From the NCBI GenBank assembly GCA_016165875.1, contig JABBOT010000002.1:3249540-3313539 (forward strand): a stretch of DNA of 64,000 nucleotides, in the 5' to 3' direction. Source of the stretch: Acanthopleura granulata (taxonomy: Eukaryota > Mollusca > Polyplacophora > Chitonida > Chitonidae). The notes beneath the pieces are model-generated. The model ran no database searches and was not told the DNA's origin. It saw only the letters and a program-made list of their open reading frames with translations. Below, one piece after another: positions 39,301 to 54,300 of this stretch; positions within the stretch are counted from its first letter, which is position 1; every line of letters begins with the position of its first letter. The position numbers and the translations under genes are program-made.

Positions 39301-42300
39301 TCCTTTACAAAAAATATACATGTACTTTTCAACATAAATGAAGACAAAATGAGATTCAAAAAAAAAAAAAAAAAAAAACTTGATCAAGTATACAAACCTT
39401 AGCTGTGGTGTTATTGGAGAACACAGCCTCCAAGTACTGCCAGAGGTCCTGCACCTCCAGCCACAGTTCCAGCACCTCAGCCACCTCCTTCAACTTCTCA
39501 GCCCATGACGCTGCTTCGTCCCTCAACGGCCCGATGTAGCGTGAAGTCAGCATGTTGGCCAGAAGGGCCTGGGCATCCTCCAGCTGCTCCAGTAATCTCT
39601 GGGTGAAAGCCTTGTCCAGGTACATGGGGCCGCGCTTCTTGAAGTTCTCGAAGCTAAGCACTTGTTCTGTCCATTCCTCCTCTGTCAGCCTCATCTTGAT
39701 CTCCAGCTCTAGTTCTCTGCTGGCGCCACGGCAAATCTCAGTGATGCCACTTTGATGCCTGTATAAAGAGAGAAAAAAAATCGCTGCAATATCGGTCCTT
39801 TAATGTCTGAGAACACAGACTCCTCAAAAAAACAAAAACAAAAAAGACAACACCAGACCAAATGCATATATATAGTGATAAAGCATCCCTGCCAAAGTTT
39901 AAAACAAGTAGTGATTTCCGCCTGTTATGCTTTTTAACCAAGATATTGTTCTCAGCAAAAAAAAGCTGAAAAAAATTGAAAGCCCCACCATGTAATGAAT
40001 TTTAAACCAAGAGACACAAGTTTACACCTGGTTCCACAATGTCCTCCTTACTCTATAAACTGAACCTACTCAATAAGCCCAATATCCAGGAGATGTGACA
40101 GCTTAAAGACATTGGCCTCCAGCTGAAAGGAGCTTCCTGTGACATGCATCACCTGTAACCAATGGCGGTTTCGGATTTCCTGCCAATACAAATATATGTA
40201 TGTGATATTTACGCATAACAGATAATTACAGACAAGTCTGATTTTGATTAATGCAAAGGAGTATAAACCAAACTTAGCTCATTACACCATGAATTTTGTT
40301 CATATTATTGACTTAATTTTCACGACAGCAATAAAAATCATGGTGTTACAAAGAAGACTAATCACAAGATTTCACAGAAGACAGTTCAGTTTAAATTCAA
40401 ACGTTTTGAGCGGAATAACACTTGCAAATATACCTTGCTAAGAATGATGTATTCAACAAACCTAAACCAGCATTTACATTCTTGACTCTGGCATAAAGGG
40501 AAGGCAATGTACATGTACTTACATTCGCAGCAAGACTCTGCAGTAGAGGGAACACAGCCAAGTACTCTTCCAGTGATGTTTTGAGGTCATTATAGGCATC
40601 CCAGTCCTTCAGTTTACTGGGTAGAGCTAAGCACTCATCCCAGTGCATCTCCACCTAAATTAGCAACAGGGATATAATCGTGTATTGAAAAGCATAGGAC
40701 ATCTACACAATGGTTCAATGGAATGTACATGTAAATGGTCTTTACATGTGTAGATAACATCTGATATCAATCAGCCAGACATATACAAAACGGATGTATG
40801 GAGGAAGACTAACTGACAAAGAACGGTGACATGTTGATTTTGTATTCATGCGCTTTGCTGGTCTTCATTTGAATATTTCTTTGAAATTGCTGAAGCCACA
40901 CACATCTTTAAAAATTCTATTACGTCCTGAAGTTGCCCAAATTGAACACTTAATGTCCTTAGTCTAAATTTCCCACTTTATGTATAATTTTATAAGTTAA
41001 CATTTTAAATCTTGCAGAACTGAAAGTTCAGGTGAGCATAAGCGAATTATAAAAGTTAAGCTAAATTGTTTCCAGGACTAGGTTTTAATGGAAATATATA
41101 TGGGTCCAGAAAGCAGTCTTGATACATGCCAAGTTAAGTGAAGTGCATGACATCCTAATGAATAAGGAGATAACAATGATTTGCAACTATGTCTGCTGAA
41201 TATGTCTGGCTGATACTTTTGCAAAGATTAGTTGTTGTTGTTGTTGTTACATCAATAACATGGAGCTATTACCTCTCTTGAGGAGTTATCCAGGTTGACT
41301 TCAGACCAGAGGGTATCTCTGAACTGAGTATCAAACCTGATGAATTTCTGGAACAATCCATACAGCTGACTAAGCAGTTCAAGCTCCTGAAAATGACAAA
41401 AGAGATTGTATTCGTAAAATACCAATGAATAAACGTATGAAATACGTACAGTACACAATACATACATGTCAGGTACAACACAAATGATTAAAACCATTAA
41501 GAAATCTGTTCTCCATGTTTGAAGGTTACTGTATATGTTACTAGACTGTCATTCTCAGTATATGCCACCCTCTAAAAGAGAAAGGTGTGACAGTCATAAA
41601 AATCCAAGATGGCATACAGCAGGCAAACTGAATTATTTAGAGTGACGTAAATCAATCGTAACTGTCCACATACTTGATCTCAAGCTAATGTGCAAATATG
41701 AGCTTCAATGACTGAAAACTGTTCCAATATCTTCAGGTCATGACTGGTGTGACAAACGGACGGATGGAAGAACAGACATTCAGAGAGCATTTCCACATCC
41801 CTAAGCCACGCTCATGGCGAGGGATAATTACGAGGCACGACTCACCTCTCCAGTCCTGTCCAGCTCAGGGAATGGCTTACACACAATACCAAACACCTTG
41901 GAGACTGAATCAAGAGTTTTACGTTTGGTATCATACTGGGCATAGCGTTGCTGGAAGTCATAGAGCCGAGACACAGCTTCTGAAGGTGGAATTCCAGGCA
42001 CTGCTGGGCCTTGACCGTCAAAGGAATTCCTGAACTGTATCACCTCTACAACAAAAGTCTGAAACAAACACAAAAAGAGGGTGTATATTTCATTGATTCC
42101 TGTTCATGCCTGAGTAATTCCTAAATCCTATATGTATATCCTACTTGCATTAATGAGACTAAAGATGCTCTATGTTCTATGTATGCTGTAAGATTCCAGA
42201 AGAACTAAACCAATAAGCCAGTGGAACATTGCACTGTTCAAAATAGTAAATTCAAGAAGCTTATTTTTGTCAGAACATTCTCAATGAGATGAACGCAGGA

Positions 42301-45300
42301 TAACTGTTTTACAGTTAATTCCTCAACCTTTTCGCAAATGAAAGAGCAATCAGTCCAATTTATGCACATTGTTACTGTGATTCGGCCAGTTTCAGGCCTT
42401 AACAAAAAATATAATTTCATTAGTCAACAAAGAATAATACCTTCAGAATTTGCCTGAATAAACGCCTTGCAAACATACGAATAGGTTGAAGAATTACAGT
42501 ACCTACTATTGTTTTAGTTAACTCATGAGGCTGTCTTCTATCAGGTTAGACACTTTCACTCATTCATTGCCCTTTTTAACAATACAATAATTATTCATAT
42601 TTCTGTTTATATGCTGCAAATTAACAAGCACATTACGTTACATGTATCTGCCCCCCCCCCCCCCACCAAACACTCAAAATGTGTTCTTTCAAGACCGTTG
42701 CAAATTTAATTTACCTTGACTTGCTTGTCAAGCTCTTGACCAAATGCCCCTCTCCTCTCTTTCAGCAGTATCATTCGGACCTGATCAGCCAGGTCCATGA
42801 GTTGTTGCCACTTCTCCCTCAGCTGATCCACCTCCTCTACCTCGCTACGTGGCAAGCGTAACTCAAACTCCCTGTCAACAATACAAGGTAGCAGTTCAGA
42901 ATTTCAAGAAATTGAACTTGGCAGAAATGCAGTCAGGCTGCTCATCACATGTCATGACAATCATGGGTGTAGCTTTCTGAACATTGTATCTTTCATTTAA
43001 CTGTCATTGATAAAATGTTTACTTATTTATTTGTTCATTTGATTGATTTTTACTCCATACTCAAGAATTCTAACATAATTAACAATTTTGAATATTACCA
43101 GCTCTAAGTCATTCATATACAACATCCCCCAATATTTTTGAACAGTATACTGAAAATGGACCAGAGCTCTAAGATAAGCCTGTCACACACAAACTCTACT
43201 GACACAGCACTAACCTGAGCCTGATACAAATGGACTATGCGTACTTGACTCACCTGAGCCTTCCAAACACAGATTCTATGCGCACTGGACTAACTGAGCC
43301 TGTCATACATGGATTCTATGGACACTGCACTAACCCGAGCCTGTCATACATGGACTCTATTGGACGCCACACTAATCTGAGCCTGTCATACATGGACTAT
43401 ATGGGCACTGGATTAACCTGAGCCTCTCACACATGGAATCTATGAGGACTGGGCTGACAGAAGCCTGTCATATGAACTCTATAGGCACTACACCAGCCTG
43501 AGCCTGTCATACATGGACTCTATGGGGACTGCACCAACCTGAGCCAGTCATACATTGACTCCATGGCCACTACACTAACCTAAGGGTATCATACATGGCC
43601 ACTATTTGGCCTGGACTAAGTATGGCATGCATGGACTCTATTGGCACAGCACTAACCTGAACCTATCATTTATGGACTTTATGGCCACTACACTAACCTG
43701 AGCCAGTCATACATGGACTCTATGGCTACTACATTAACCTGAGCCTGTCATACACGAACTCTATGACCACTACATTAACCTAAGCCTGCTATACATGAAC
43801 TCTATAAACTCTATGGGCACTGCAGTAACCTGAGCCTGTAATACATGGACCCTATGGGTCTACACTAACCTGAGCCTGTCATACATGGACTCTATAGGCA
43901 GGTAGATAGAGTCTATCTTGTTCTCCATGTCCCTCAGTTCCTCCAGAAGATGGAGGGCACTGTTCAGCTGATCCAGGGTCTGTACATTCATCTCCAGACG
44001 GGACTGCACATTGGACCGATACGACACGACGTCATCCAGCTTTTTCTGAAACATGCCATGTATTTACAAAGATAAGAGATCTAGCCGTTAACATGTATTT
44101 ACAATGATCGTTGACTGAAGTATTGTTGAAAAGGCAATTATGCTTTGAACTTGACTATAATCTGTTCCATGGTTAAATATTACATTTTACAAGATACATG
44201 TACATGTATTAAGTATATTTCTAGATATCACATCTTGCTCGCTGGTGCGCTGAGCACTGATTTCCCTTTGTATTATATACAGATGGGACATCCTTTCTAG
44301 CAGGTGTGGTTGGGATACTAAATGACAATAAACAAGGGTAGGTCACTCAAAGTACAGCCATCATTTATCTTTACAACAGGACATAAAGAGGTTTATTCTC
44401 CGCAGATAAAATCAAGTCTTGTTTCAGTAATATGTCTCTGTGCATACAGGATGCAAATTCCCTGCTGTTCCTGATGGCAACAAGTGCAGGGTATATTGAC
44501 CAATTTGTCCAAAAACACCACCATTCAACTAGTGAAAGGTTTTAAAGATTAAATCATAATAGTAACCTCATAAACCTTATCATTAAGACTAACGAGAAGT
44601 CGCTATTCACCTTTGCATCTTCATGGAGTACTGAAGCAAACTGTGTTTTCCATGCCATTGCAAAGCCATGCAGGGCGTCCTTGATGGGGTTTGTGTGAAG
44701 ACAGACTGGGCCAACAGGTAATACCTCGGGGATAGCCACCACTTTTCTCTCCACCTGTAACATTCGCTCAACTTCTCGCTCCAGAGCCACAGTTCCAGGA
44801 TCAGAGTCTATGAACTCGGCAAAGTTCCCATGCAAATCATCCTTCCACAGGAAATCATAGCAGCTGAAGTGAAACAGGTGTTTTTGGAGTGTAGGCTCCA
44901 AGCCTGAAATAAGGGAAAGAAAAAGATTTTATTCAACTTAATAAATCAATGAACCCTTCATGAAGGGTGTGCTCTTGCAAGAAGACATTGCAGTTGCACA
45001 ATTATTGTGTCATACTGAACAGTAATATTGTCTGCTAAGTTGAACATAGTCATTTTTTTAAAGTAGAGAAAATACTACAATAAAGTGCATGCCAGATGGA
45101 AAACCATTTAATACTGGCCCGAAAAAAGTTTGATATATCTTTTTTTCAGAATTTTTCCAACTGATTAAAATGCTTTTAAAAACATTAGATCGGTCTGGTT
45201 GGAAACCAGTGGGTGTCATCTTGTATCTCATTCATATTCTTTGCTTGAAGCAGTGCGTTTCAAGATTCAATCCAATTTTTTATTTATGCCAAAGGATACC

Positions 45301-48300: not shown

Positions 48301-51300
48301 CTGCATTTGTACTTTTAGACACATAATTGTAACAATCTATATAGGCAATACCATTTCGTCAAAGTTGATCAAGTTGATCAAATAAAAAAAAAAACAGGCT
48401 CTAATGCAAATATTGCACTCTCTACCTGTACAGGGAAGGTAAAACATGTGAACTAACTGGAGAAGTGCTGGGTTGGTTGTGTCCTCTGCTGACCAAGTCA
48501 TGTTTGAGGTAAGGGACAGGCTTGTGGATGGTCTCAGGTCTCCTGAGCTGGCTGAGGTCACCCGACTAGCAGCCCCAGAGAGGGGGCTGGCACTGCTGAG
48601 GTCAGACGCACCCCTAAATAAGGCACTGGTTACCCTGACCAGCTCCCCTGTACAGCCTGATAGCTCGGCCAGACACAGCAGGGAATTGCCCGTGGCCAGC
48701 ACAATGGCATCAGAGACAATGGACTTGTAATGTTCTACAATTGACAATAGTGAGAGAAAACACAGTTATTCAATGTTGATATCATAAACGTTAAGGTCAT
48801 AAGAGTTGTAAATTGTGCATTGGGTTTTTTTTCCTTCAAATGTACTCTACGTATTGCATGTGATTATAACCAACCTGGATATGCCAGATGACAGAATTCA
48901 GTTATCTATTTTTTGGGATATCATCTTGTGGTACATGTACCAACAGGCCTTTCTGAGCTGTCAAACGTGCATTCAACTAATCATAACCAGTGTTGTTGCA
49001 AGTAGGTCAACCTGATGTCCCACACACTGGTTACAAATGTTCAACCTTTCTGTGACATCATGACGTTACGATTGCTTTCACCGTGGAATCATAAGTAACA
49101 TTGTCATGAATAGGAGTGGTGGGACAACGGATGTGGTGGATCTATCAAGTACACCAGTTGGAACAACCTGATAGGAGAAAATGAGAAACAACTCCTGAAG
49201 TATTGTTAAAAGGTTCACAACCACTATAAAATGCAACACAAACATACATGTGTACTTCTTACCTATGAAAGCTGTAAATATTTTCTCCTCATTTGACAGG
49301 TGTATGGTCTCCGTCTCAGCTGTGTCAAATGTCAGTTTCTTCTGTCTGGTCAGGTCAGGAGACTGAAAACATCATCATCATACAAACCATTATGATTTTG
49401 TATATTTCACTGGATGCATTTGGCATCACTGCAGAGCTCACAAAAAAGAACACAACAACCACAACACACTGTATATGACTCATATAGCATGTACAATATT
49501 ACTAATTTTTGTTTTAAGATGACATTAATGTTCCAATGAATCAGTATCACAGAAAGCAAATCCCCAGCATAATGTTACAAATTCTTTATATTAACAAATT
49601 TTGAAATTTCTAAGCATTAACAAATATATATTTATCTGACACAAAATTCACAATGACTAATACCCACTATGACAAAAATTCATTTCTCATTTATCAGCTT
49701 TCTAAGCATGGTTTAAACAAGAGAAAAATTGCTTCTGGTTTTAAACAATGAAACCTTTAAAAAGTTATACACTTTATATACATATACAGAAAATGTGATT
49801 ATGGAAAACAAAGACAAGTAAAGAAAAGCACAAGAGCTGAACAAACAAGTGTGCATGTAAGTATAAAATAATGGAACATGTTACTGTACACATATGAAAC
49901 GTGACAACACCTTAGATTTAGTAGCAAGGCTTCCAAATAGCTTATTTGTAGGATATAAATGCAAAACTTCAGCCCAATACATCCCCCAACCTTACTTTAC
50001 ATGTATGCAAAATTTGAGCTTAACATACGGAATACTTTTTGAGATAGCAAGCCTACCCTCAACATTTACCTTCTTCAACATTGATTTCAATGCAGAAATG
50101 GCCCAGTCATGTAATTTTGAAGTTTATGTTATTATGATTGTAGAGTATCAATCATGGAACATCCCCTCATGTTTATGGTACTTTGTATGTATGCAAAACC
50201 TGAGCTCAATATATGCAGTACGTCCGTAAAATTGCTTATGTCGACACCAGTGCCGGGGACATGACAATAGCTATTCCTGGACTTTCAACAAATGTCCCCA
50301 AAATGAAATAAACCAAAACATCAGCAAAAGCCAGATAATATTTGCACAAGAATAACATGGAGCAATTTCATGATCATCTCGACTACTGTAAAGAAAGAAA
50401 AAAACACTGAGTTACTGATAAACCCTACTGAGTTTCCTGACTTGTGCAGAGCTGATGAAAATGGTGGAAATTTTGCTACTGCTTTTTCTCTTTCTTCCTC
50501 TTTGGTCTTGGCAAAGTTTTTCAGGCGATGGGCCAAATTGTACTGTAAATGAGGGAGAAACAACAATTCATGCACAATTATGTATGTGCTTCCTTCAAAT
50601 AGATCAGGGTTGGTTAGAGGGTAGGTGTGGTAAAATAAGGACATTCCATGTTAATTAATACAATCAGGTGAGTTGCATTTTATAAATAATATTGACAATG
50701 TCTTTTAAATATGGTACCCATCAAAAATCAAATCTTATGAACAACACTGAAGAAAATATCTGAACAACAGCATACTGATGCATTCTTAGCCTTTGTCCGC
50801 TTTGACACAAATACAGACTTTGCCATAGAAAGACCAATGAAAGTACTTGAAGTCCATGCCTGAAAATCGCACACATCACATCTCATTCAACAATGTGAAA
50901 AAAAAAAGAAAAAAAACTAAAAAACAGCAATTTATGGATAAGCATCAAAAGTAAAATGAACCAAACACAAACATCTTACTGCAGTACTCTTGCGTTTGTC
51001 TTTGCCTCTCTGTCAGTTTGTAAAACAAGTGGGCAACAGTGTTAGACATGTTTCAGAATGATCATGCATATGAATGCATTTATTATACACTGTAAACCTA
51101 GTATTAGAGTAAATGAATGACAGATTATAGCCTTACACCACTTCAACAACACTGAAGCCATATCGCAGACCTAATATTTGAGTAACAAGCTAGATGAGAT
51201 AAAGGGATGAGATGAAATGTCAGTTTTCCTTAAATTTTACAGGGTACAAGAAAGGATGTGTCTCATGTTGTCGAGAAGAGGTGAAATGTCACTCAGTTCT

Positions 51301-54300
51301 CCTCAGATTTTATACGGTACAAAAAAGGATGTGTCTTGTGTTGTCTCAGTGTTGCAATCATGATGATAGTGAGCATTCAAAATGTATGTATCTTCAAAAT
51401 TCTCCACAAAGTTAACTACTGACAACAGACAGCAAATAAGGCATACTCAGATGTGGTTGCAAGTCTATCTAAGAGCTCGCCTGTAGAGGATAGACTCTAA
51501 TATGCGGTAAACAAAACTAAGTCAAGACTTCGGTAATTTACAGTATTTAATATACACACACAGAATGAACGATGGAATATCCCCCTTGTGTTGTAGTTGT
51601 CCACACATGTGCAAACCCTGGACTCAATAAATGCAGCACTTTTAAAGATACCACCCCTAACATTTTGTTCAACACAAATTCTAATACACAGTACACTAAG
51701 TCGGGAATTCAGTAATTTGCAGTATTTAATATGAACTCACAGAATTAACGATGGAATATCCTCCTCATGTTATTGTGCTGTACATGTGTTCAAACCTTGA
51801 ATTCAATGCATGCAGCACTTTTAAAGATACAACCCCTAACATTTTGTTTAACATTGCTTTCCCTGTTACTGGACGCAGGCGCCATCGCTAAGGTTACGAC
51901 AGAAGCTATGATTGTACTTAGTACAGATGAGCCAATAAAGGGCTAATAAACATCCATTAGATGTTCTTGTAGCATTCACTCTCTATGGTGACGGGATAAC
52001 CTTTAAGGACTTGCCTTTCTTACTGCCAACATGCTGGACACATCCTGTAATCCAACCTCGATGGTGTTCACCCATTCTGCTAGCTGTCTGCTTCTCTCCT
52101 CGACTTTCTCAACTATCGTCTTCTTGAACACATGTGGTGGCTAATGGAGACAGAATTGTGCGTCTTTTAAAAGAGGAGAAAACCCTATTCCAGTTGCACA
52201 AGACAAATGTAAATATTTTGGAGAATGCAACTGAGATGACATCCAGGGTCCAAATTAAATTACCATTATGCTTTATTTTAAACTGCAGCATGGCAATAGA
52301 ACACTTGTATGCTACAGATATTCATGTAAGCCATATGAAACATCTTAGTTCAGTTTAAAGGTTACTCACTATCTACTGTAAATGACCTAAAATTTCTTCC
52401 CAAACCTGCATTTTTAGAAGAAGGACAAATAAAACAGATTAAGATTACTTTTGGAGCTCAAAGTTGCACTTGCTGTAAGAAGACCTTCCTAACAAAACAT
52501 AAACACCTTTCTACTGTTACAATCAGGCAAACTGATAACTTTTAGTCAAGGATGAAATGTTACAGCATATACCACAATTTGTGCATTCAAAATCACTGGT
52601 CATTAGAATTTCACTGACCAAAATGGACGACTTTCTACAAGAACTTGATTTGGCAGCAAAATTTACCCAAGATCTGGAGAGAGCATCCTCCTGGTCAAAT
52701 AGAGTGAACTGTCTGATCTTCTCTATGACATCATTAACTTTGGTTTTCAGTACAGCGTTGACCTGCTGGCTCAGTTGTGTTAACTTCAAAGTAGCTGCAT
52801 GAACTTGGTGGAGAAAGGCATCTGTCAATCAAACGTATTTCCAAGTTTGAACATCTGAGGTAAGCTTTAGACATGCAATACAACAACTCTAATGGTCACA
52901 GCCACCTCACTTGTGTGTAATATTATTCAGTCAACAATGTATTAGCAATGATCTAATGATCTTACGCATTCTCCACTTCTACTGAACAAAACCAAAATAT
53001 CAACAACAACAAAAGTCTTATAGGACACATGCTACAAACATACCATAACTTCATTTACTGGTACTAAACATTCAGCCAGAGGTACAAACAAAACATTAAC
53101 ACAATGAAATGAAATGCTCTTCCGGACAGATAATAAATGCTTTACACAAAAAAAAAACTATTGGACACAGTCTGCCTGATTCACCTATATTCATGCTGCT
53201 CCAGAAGAGAGTGTTAAGCCCTGGCTGTAATTGTTGTTGCACATTCCTCAGGTGAGAAGCAAACAGTGGTTTGAGGGCCTCTGGAATTGAATCTGATACT
53301 GCCTTGTACTCCTGTAGGCAGAGTTCCAGGTGAGCCTTGTAGCTCTTAAACCGAGACTCCTGCTGAATCATGGAACTAGCTGACTCTGGCAACTGTATCC
53401 CAAGTCGGGCCAACCACTTGGCTTCATGGATAAGCTCCAGCACTCTGAAAACATAACATTAATAATGGTAATTATAGAGACAGTAACAGACTGAAGCAAT
53501 ATGGTTTGACAAAAACAATTTCAACAAAGAACCAATGACATGTATATCATCACTTGTCCTTAAACACGCAGAAGATGAATCTGCACAATGGCATATCCAA
53601 CACTGGGCAAAATAGATTTCATTTATCTGCAGAATTATACTCTCTGGTAGCTTTGTAAGTATTAAAATCTGTTGCTTCTTTATTATTTTATGAAATGTCA
53701 GTTGAACATTACCAATAATACCCATCAAGAAGAATTGCAAATTGTGATTTATACATTTACCATGAATTCATCACAAAATCTAATGCACACCTAAGCAGAA
53801 ATTAGAGTAGACGTACTTATCATCAGCATTGACATTCATCTCTCCAGTCAATGGATTTCTCACAAGTAAAGTGGCCTTCATGCCACTCTTGGCCTGCTCA
53901 ATCTGCCCTTTCCACTGGGTGAACCAAAGGCTCTCAAAGGTGACCAGGGCAGTGGCCAGCCTGTTGTAGAGGCGCACGAGACGTGCAAACTCCGCTGAGT
54001 GGTTGACAGCCTTGTTGTCACGGAACACCTTCATTGGGTCCTCTATCTTCTTGAGGAGCTGCCTTGACCAGTGGATGGCTCCAGCCACAGGAGGAGCATT
54101 CCTCACTGCTTGAGGCTCATCCTGGAATCGTTCAGAAAACAACATGATGTTAGTTACAATCCCAGTATAATGGAGTACCAACAGTATCACATATATGCTA
54201 AATATTATGACTTATTCATACATGTTAACTTCCATGTTAATAAGGATTTACAAAACAGGATTTAGATTCTAACATGAGCTTTTCACTTAATTCAAGAACT

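Follow-up and report, generated by a model that had tools for sequence, protein, structure and literature searches.

Introduction

Minisatellites built from exon–intron junctions have been described before. The so-called mirage minisatellites of amphioxus are found in Adh3, in the globin genes BflGb6 and BflGb9 and in troponin C, with similar repeats in PGBD5, and regular splicing was reported or suggested to be undisturbed by them on the evidence of reverse transcription PCR (RT-PCR) (PMC3087553, PMC3902484). A comparable case is intron 7 of the human coagulation factor VII gene (F7), where a long series of tandem 37-bp repeats has the authentic donor in its first unit, and normally only the most upstream donor is used, whereas mutation of the donor leads to exon skipping and to activation of downstream cryptic donors (PMC6627357). 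In addition, internal tandem repeats at exon–intron boundaries of recently duplicated human genes can alter splicing (PMC2812944), and intron gain through tandem duplication of the sequence AGGT has been described (PMC4974935). In this work, we describe an array of 41-bp units at an exon–intron junction of a ciliary dynein heavy-chain gene of the mollusc Acanthopleura granulata, located in a stretch of 64,000 nucleotides (contig JABBOT010000002.1 of assembly GCA_016165875.1, positions 3,249,540 to 3,313,539 of the forward strand), hereafter called the window, whose positions are used throughout.

A preliminary description of this locus, made from the letters alone, had called such an array unusual, which is fair, although it is not unprecedented in view of the amphioxus mirages and the human F7 repeats. 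The phenomenon is, then, an already described one, and the present array differs from these cases in its gene and in its decayed state. No such array in a dynein gene was found in a literature search whose coverage left out most subscription journals.

A tandem array spanning an exon–intron junction

The elements that define the array and its surroundings are the following:

43870..44045, minus strand: dynein heavy-chain exon of the outer-arm gamma / DNAH5 class, 176 nt, assigned by its open frame (KKLDD...ESMYDRLR) and by protein matches
42872..43869, minus strand: host intron, 998 nt, with the end TTGTTGACAG
43864..43872, minus strand: authentic 5' splice site CAG/GTTAGT, with intron position +1 at 43869 and the frame restored by the acceptor at 42872/42871
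43858..43897, minus strand: first repeat unit, which takes in the final 28 bases of the exon and continues through the authentic donor into the start of the intron (cyclic alignment)
43169..43857, minus strand: 17 intronic units of about 41 bp, the last one partial (Tandem Repeats Finder, cyclic alignment)

Tandem Repeats Finder delimited a repeat of period 41 at 43177–43900, with 17.7 copies and 72% matches, and a cyclic alignment of the minus strand from 43897 to 43169 resolved it into one exon-spanning unit followed by 17 intronic units, the last of them partial, in agreement with the roughly 17 intronic copies of the exon end and its donor counted in the preliminary description. Each 41-bp unit corresponds to the last 27–28 exon bases, and not to the 29 proposed there, plus the first 13–14 intron bases, which include the donor. 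A majority sequence was derived from the 17 intronic units with the exon copy set aside, and it was identical to the exon at 27 of the 28 exonic columns and to the authentic donor at all six positions of GTTAGT (these column counts disregard the exon row, a partial row of 3 bases at the head of the alignment and any bases inserted in the units; the last unit is partial).

The 28-base exon end was also compared directly with its own intron, where the best ungapped match was 27/28 and 12 places reached at least 22/28. Beyond the array, neither strand of the window offered a place at 22/28 or better, and a single place reached at least 20/28. The best match obtained in 200 mononucleotide-shuffled introns was 18/28, and the likeness between exon and array is therefore far above the chance level that the preliminary description had asked about.

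Donor-like sequence is kept at several joints between units, as had been noticed before: 13 of the 17 intronic joints carry GT, one carries GC (43497), and three carry neither. The four joints singled out in the preliminary description (43426, 43508, 43671, and 43712) were slightly misplaced, the nearest ones being 43417, 43497, 43656, and 43697; three of these do have GT, whereas 43497 is the joint with GC.

The units have diverged from each other in sequence. Mean pairwise identity, computed with the exon unit included, was 0.73, without a steady fall as the distance between units increased (0.738 at lag 1, 0.733 at lag 7, and 0.742 at lag 8). The lack of such a decay fits an amplification that has stopped, and the pattern as a whole fits an array that was once homogeneous and has drifted since then. 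Column conservation among the 17 intronic units (30/34 for GT, 88/101 for GTTAGT, and 579/689 for all columns) showed no sign of selection on the decoy donors, either for their removal or for their retention. Since the GT columns stand at 30/34 against 579/689 overall, the decoys have not been purged, and purging by selection was rejected.

Two further observations concern the edges of the units. The tetranucleotide TGCC is found in the exon just 5' of TATAGAG and also marks the edge at which 4 of the 17 intronic units start; microhomology of this kind at the unit edges would fit slippage. In addition, at the 5' edge of the array, the exon carries GACTCTAT and ATAGAGTC at 43888–43913 (minus strand), separated by 10 bases, and the unit consensus repeats only the second arm of this pair (ATAGAGTC).

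Comparison with described arrays

At the sequence level, the dynein array shows the features of the mirage class that were tested: the tandem unit spans the exon–intron boundary, the authentic boundary is itself one member of the array (the first unit, 43897–43858), and the splice signal is retained by many units but not all, just as many but not all units of the amphioxus mirages keep their AG/GT signals. The 41-bp unit also falls within the 10–72 bp of the Adh3 mirage units. In contrast, the units of BflGb6 are 81–100% identical, with concerted evolution, whereas those of the dynein array are strongly diverged and point to little recent homogenisation. The mirages were described in the amphioxus genes listed above, while the present array belongs to a ciliary dynein gene and is known from sequence alone.

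The likeness to human F7 lies in the position of the authentic donor, which is inside the first tandem unit in both cases and, in the dynein array, is the most upstream of the series of donor copies; however, the F7 repeats are described as highly homologous and variable in number, and the dynein units are diverged. The repeats of recently duplicated human genes (PMC2812944) share with the dynein array the presence of minisatellite units at exon–intron boundaries, but these cases concern segmental duplications, with alternative splicing or novel introns as the outcome, whereas the dynein intron appears to be in an old position and nothing points to a new isoform. Finally, the AGGT model (PMC4974935) likewise involves tandem duplication of a sequence that bears a splice signal. 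In that model, a new intron is made, whereas the dynein duplication took place inside an existing intron, with no indication of a new one.

The host gene

The model of the junction is completed by one more exon:

42715..42871, minus strand: next coding exon, 157 nt, placed by alignment of the joined sequence and followed by GTAAAT from 42714

The 176-nt exon starts at a codon boundary and exits in phase 2, and the phase-2 junction of the authentic donor with the acceptor at 42872/42871 restores the dynein frame. The splice signals of the model are TTTCAG/AAAAAG at the acceptor of the exon, CTCAG/GTTAGT at its donor, and GACAG/GGAG at the next acceptor. Exons 44045–43870 and 42871–42715, once joined, gave a stop-free sequence (KKLDD...ESMYDRLREFELRLPRSEVEEVD...) that aligned across the junction with residues 1074–1176 of a flagellar outer-arm dynein gamma chain (E 1.6e-10) and, also across the junction, with dynein axonemal heavy chain 5 (E 3.4e-6), which we take to be the Chlamydomonas and the human proteins, respectively. 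The predicted gene model is sound at this exon and its splice sites. Translation of 15 kb around it yielded neighbouring exons colinear with the same dynein chains, some of them through weak matches, and because of this colinearity, the gene looks ordinary in the region of the array. A second near-copy of the gene was considered and rejected, as the next-best match of the exon in the genome was only 33% identical (E 0.015, five matches in all), and was taken as a distant dynein paralogue.

Origin of the repeat unit

The exon end encodes conserved dynein sequence, and its alignment with distant dynein chains continued across the junction. When the exon was used as a query, 30 predicted proteins were recovered, and in 29 of them the similarity reached the exon-end codon, the single exception being P0019, where it broke off earlier. 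Among these 29 relatives, 14 end at that codon and 15 carry tails unlike the present intron, some of them resembling each other. Such ends are what one would expect of open reading frames (ORFs) that enter an intron at one shared position, and the intron position therefore looks common to 29 of the 30 predicted relatives.

The nearest relative, P0001, is 92% identical and shares ESMYDRLR, after which come LV and 21 residues (LVQSLLTVMFF...). The 60 bases after LVQ matched the array start at 27 positions at best, a value reached by 31% of 2000 shuffles (mean 24.9, standard deviation 3.2). P0001 thus presents the exon end without the repeat at the start of its intron, which speaks against a repeat older than its link to the exon.

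The unit was then searched in the genome (606.5 Mb, 87 contigs), where it was found at up to 3 mismatches in seven places, all of them within this array and none elsewhere; the whole array, in a separate search whose counts may be lower bounds, matched only itself. A dispersed-repeat origin was rejected on the lack of any genomic copy outside the array at this threshold. No candidate relative carrying the array was recovered by a probe with one array-derived ORF, and exact matches to a 22-base core of the array were absent from viral contigs.

Because the exon end is conserved, the intron of P0001 starts without the repeat, and the unit is unique in the genome at up to 3 mismatches, the array most likely grew from this exon–intron junction. 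The proposal that it arose from a functional exon end with its donor, already made in the preliminary description, is in this way strongly supported, with a majority sequence that equals the exon at 27/28 positions.

Donor copies and predicted consequences for splicing

Three more elements are relevant to the use of the donor copies:

43692..43700, minus strand: intronic donor copy CAG/GTTAGT, identical to the authentic site in all nine bases, +1 at 43697, predicted U1 duplex of -10.2 kcal/mol
43248..43256, minus strand: intronic donor copy CAG/GTGAGT, +1 at 43253, predicted U1 duplex of -12.3 kcal/mol, against -10.2 kcal/mol for the authentic site
43860..43862, minus strand: in-frame TAG of every extended exon (AGG TTA GTG TAG), the same first stop for all 17 of the 17 downstream joints tried

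Pairing was predicted with the U1 5' end ATACTTACCTG, which is found in the two best U1 genes of the genome. The authentic donor gave a predicted duplex of -10.2 kcal/mol, and 7 of the 13 GT joints were within 1.5 kcal/mol of this value or better. Nine donor bases identical to those of the authentic site were found at the joints 43697, 43656, and 43214. Separately, four equal weak U1-like matches, below the family cut-off and spaced by about 5.5 kb, were detected at G000:C31:740-17378 (L016-L019), which perhaps represent a tandem array of variant U1 genes; L016, the only one of the four that was checked, carries ATACTTACCTG.

The TAG at 43862–43860 sits two codons past the junction codon, and the ORF ends in ...RLRLV. 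Use of a distal donor would thus run into one and the same stop, in line with the in-frame TAG foreseen in the preliminary description. A premature stop with later exons downstream leads to mRNA decay and, given that later exons come after this TAG, decay of the mis-spliced mRNA would be expected. The decoy donors are probably silent, with the first donor alone presumably in use, and it may be that the cell has to choose actively among the donor copies.

The RNA fold of 86 nt around the authentic donor was ordinary (z -0.78, with 36 of 200 shuffles folding as well), which led us to reject the idea that the authentic donor is marked by a structure in the local RNA. No known RNA families were detected in the window at gathering thresholds.

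Proposed explanation and alternatives

We consider it highly probable that the array is a mirage-type minisatellite, in which a junction-derived 41-bp unit was amplified in the intron and then drifted, with the decoy donors as passengers. A 41-bp stretch of exon end and donor of the ciliary dynein heavy-chain gene would have been duplicated in tandem and amplified within the intron to about 18 copies, presumably through slippage or unequal exchange. The amplification would later have slowed or ceased, and the intronic copies would have diverged by drift, with hardly a trace of later homogenisation, the exon copy being held meanwhile by protein coding. The downstream donor copies would most likely be tolerated passengers, with the spliceosome taking the most upstream donor, the one anchored to the exon and transcribed first; this use is assumed because it was reported for human F7 and suggested by RT-PCR for the amphioxus mirages.

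Several points weigh against this explanation. The strongest predicted donor is the distal copy at 43253, so its silence would require a position effect, and in some minigene experiments with duplicated donors the copy nearest to the 3' splice site is reportedly favoured, contrary to the assumption made here, which follows the precedents. The lack of the array in P0001 is read from about 60 intron bases at the tail of a predicted ORF; the best fit of these bases anywhere in the present intron was 35/60 and fell beyond the array (a maximum without control), and P0001 may have repeats deeper in its intron or may have lost an array. In addition, identity dropped to 0.66 at lag 16 (two pairs), and Tandem Repeats Finder also picked up a period of 80 bp (80% matches) and one of 200 bp (75%), both of them local, so later internal duplication is possible. 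Finally, the copy number hangs on the correctness of a single assembly.

The array provides a natural test of how the spliceosome chooses a 5' splice site among serial near-identical copies, because three intronic copies share the nine donor bases of the authentic site and another has a stronger predicted U1 duplex. Exclusive use of the first donor would support, in an unrelated gene, the upstream-first rule reported for human F7, whereas use of any other donor besides it would set a limit to that rule. As a junction-derived array old enough to have decayed, it is also material for the study of the final fate of such arrays and of their possible contribution to the growth of introns.

The alternative that survives best is a regulated poison-splicing device, in which some cells would use distal donors, adding the TAG and lowering the dynein mRNA. 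It agrees with the persistence of donor copies (GT at 13/17 joints, seven of which match the authentic site in U1 pairing to within 1.5 kcal/mol or surpass it) and with the common stop hit by each extended exon. However, conservation in the donor columns is close to that of the unit as a whole (88/101 for GTTAGT versus 579/689), as drift would leave it, the repeat is absent from the intron start of P0001, and the precedent arrays were reported without effect on splicing (PMC3087553, PMC3902484), all of which makes such a device unlikely. A bolder form, to which we give slightly less credit still, would have the distal donors used at a controlled rate, with all extended exons stopping at the same TAG and the length of the array setting dynein output; if this were true, array length would govern the output of a ciliary dynein gene. 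Its boldest extension is recursive removal of the array, conceivable because several copies read CTCAG/GTTAGT like the exon: splicing of the exon into such a unit could recreate an identical donor, and the array could be removed stepwise, leaving the mRNA unchanged.

We find it very improbable that the repeat came first, or came from elsewhere, and overwrote the exon end through array-to-exon gene conversion or insertion of a dispersed repeat. The near identity of the exon and the array majority (27/28) would be expected in that case too, but the exon end aligns through the junction with distant dynein chains and with 29 of the 30 predicted relatives, no copy of the unit with 3 mismatches or fewer turned up in the genome outside the array, and P0001 has the same exon end with no repeat at its intron start. 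Even less credible is an assembly artefact, either an inflated number of units or a misassembled array: a single assembly was available, but the mutual divergence of the units (mean identity of 0.73) is not expected from misassembly, and the flanking exons are colinear on both sides. A chance likeness of a simple-sequence intron to the exon end was rejected as practically impossible, given a best match of 27/28 against at most 18/28 in 200 shuffles and 27/28 to the independently built majority.

Other repeats in the window

Apart from the array, a 21-bp tandem repeat with 2.2 copies was detected at 39439–39484, inside sequence that corresponds, by its match to dynein heavy chains, to a coding exon. 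At 51516–51853, a sequence of about 179 bp is duplicated head to tail, its two copies being 82% alike, and near this duplication, at 51220–51345, a 53-base repeat is present in two copies 73 bp apart that are 85% alike.
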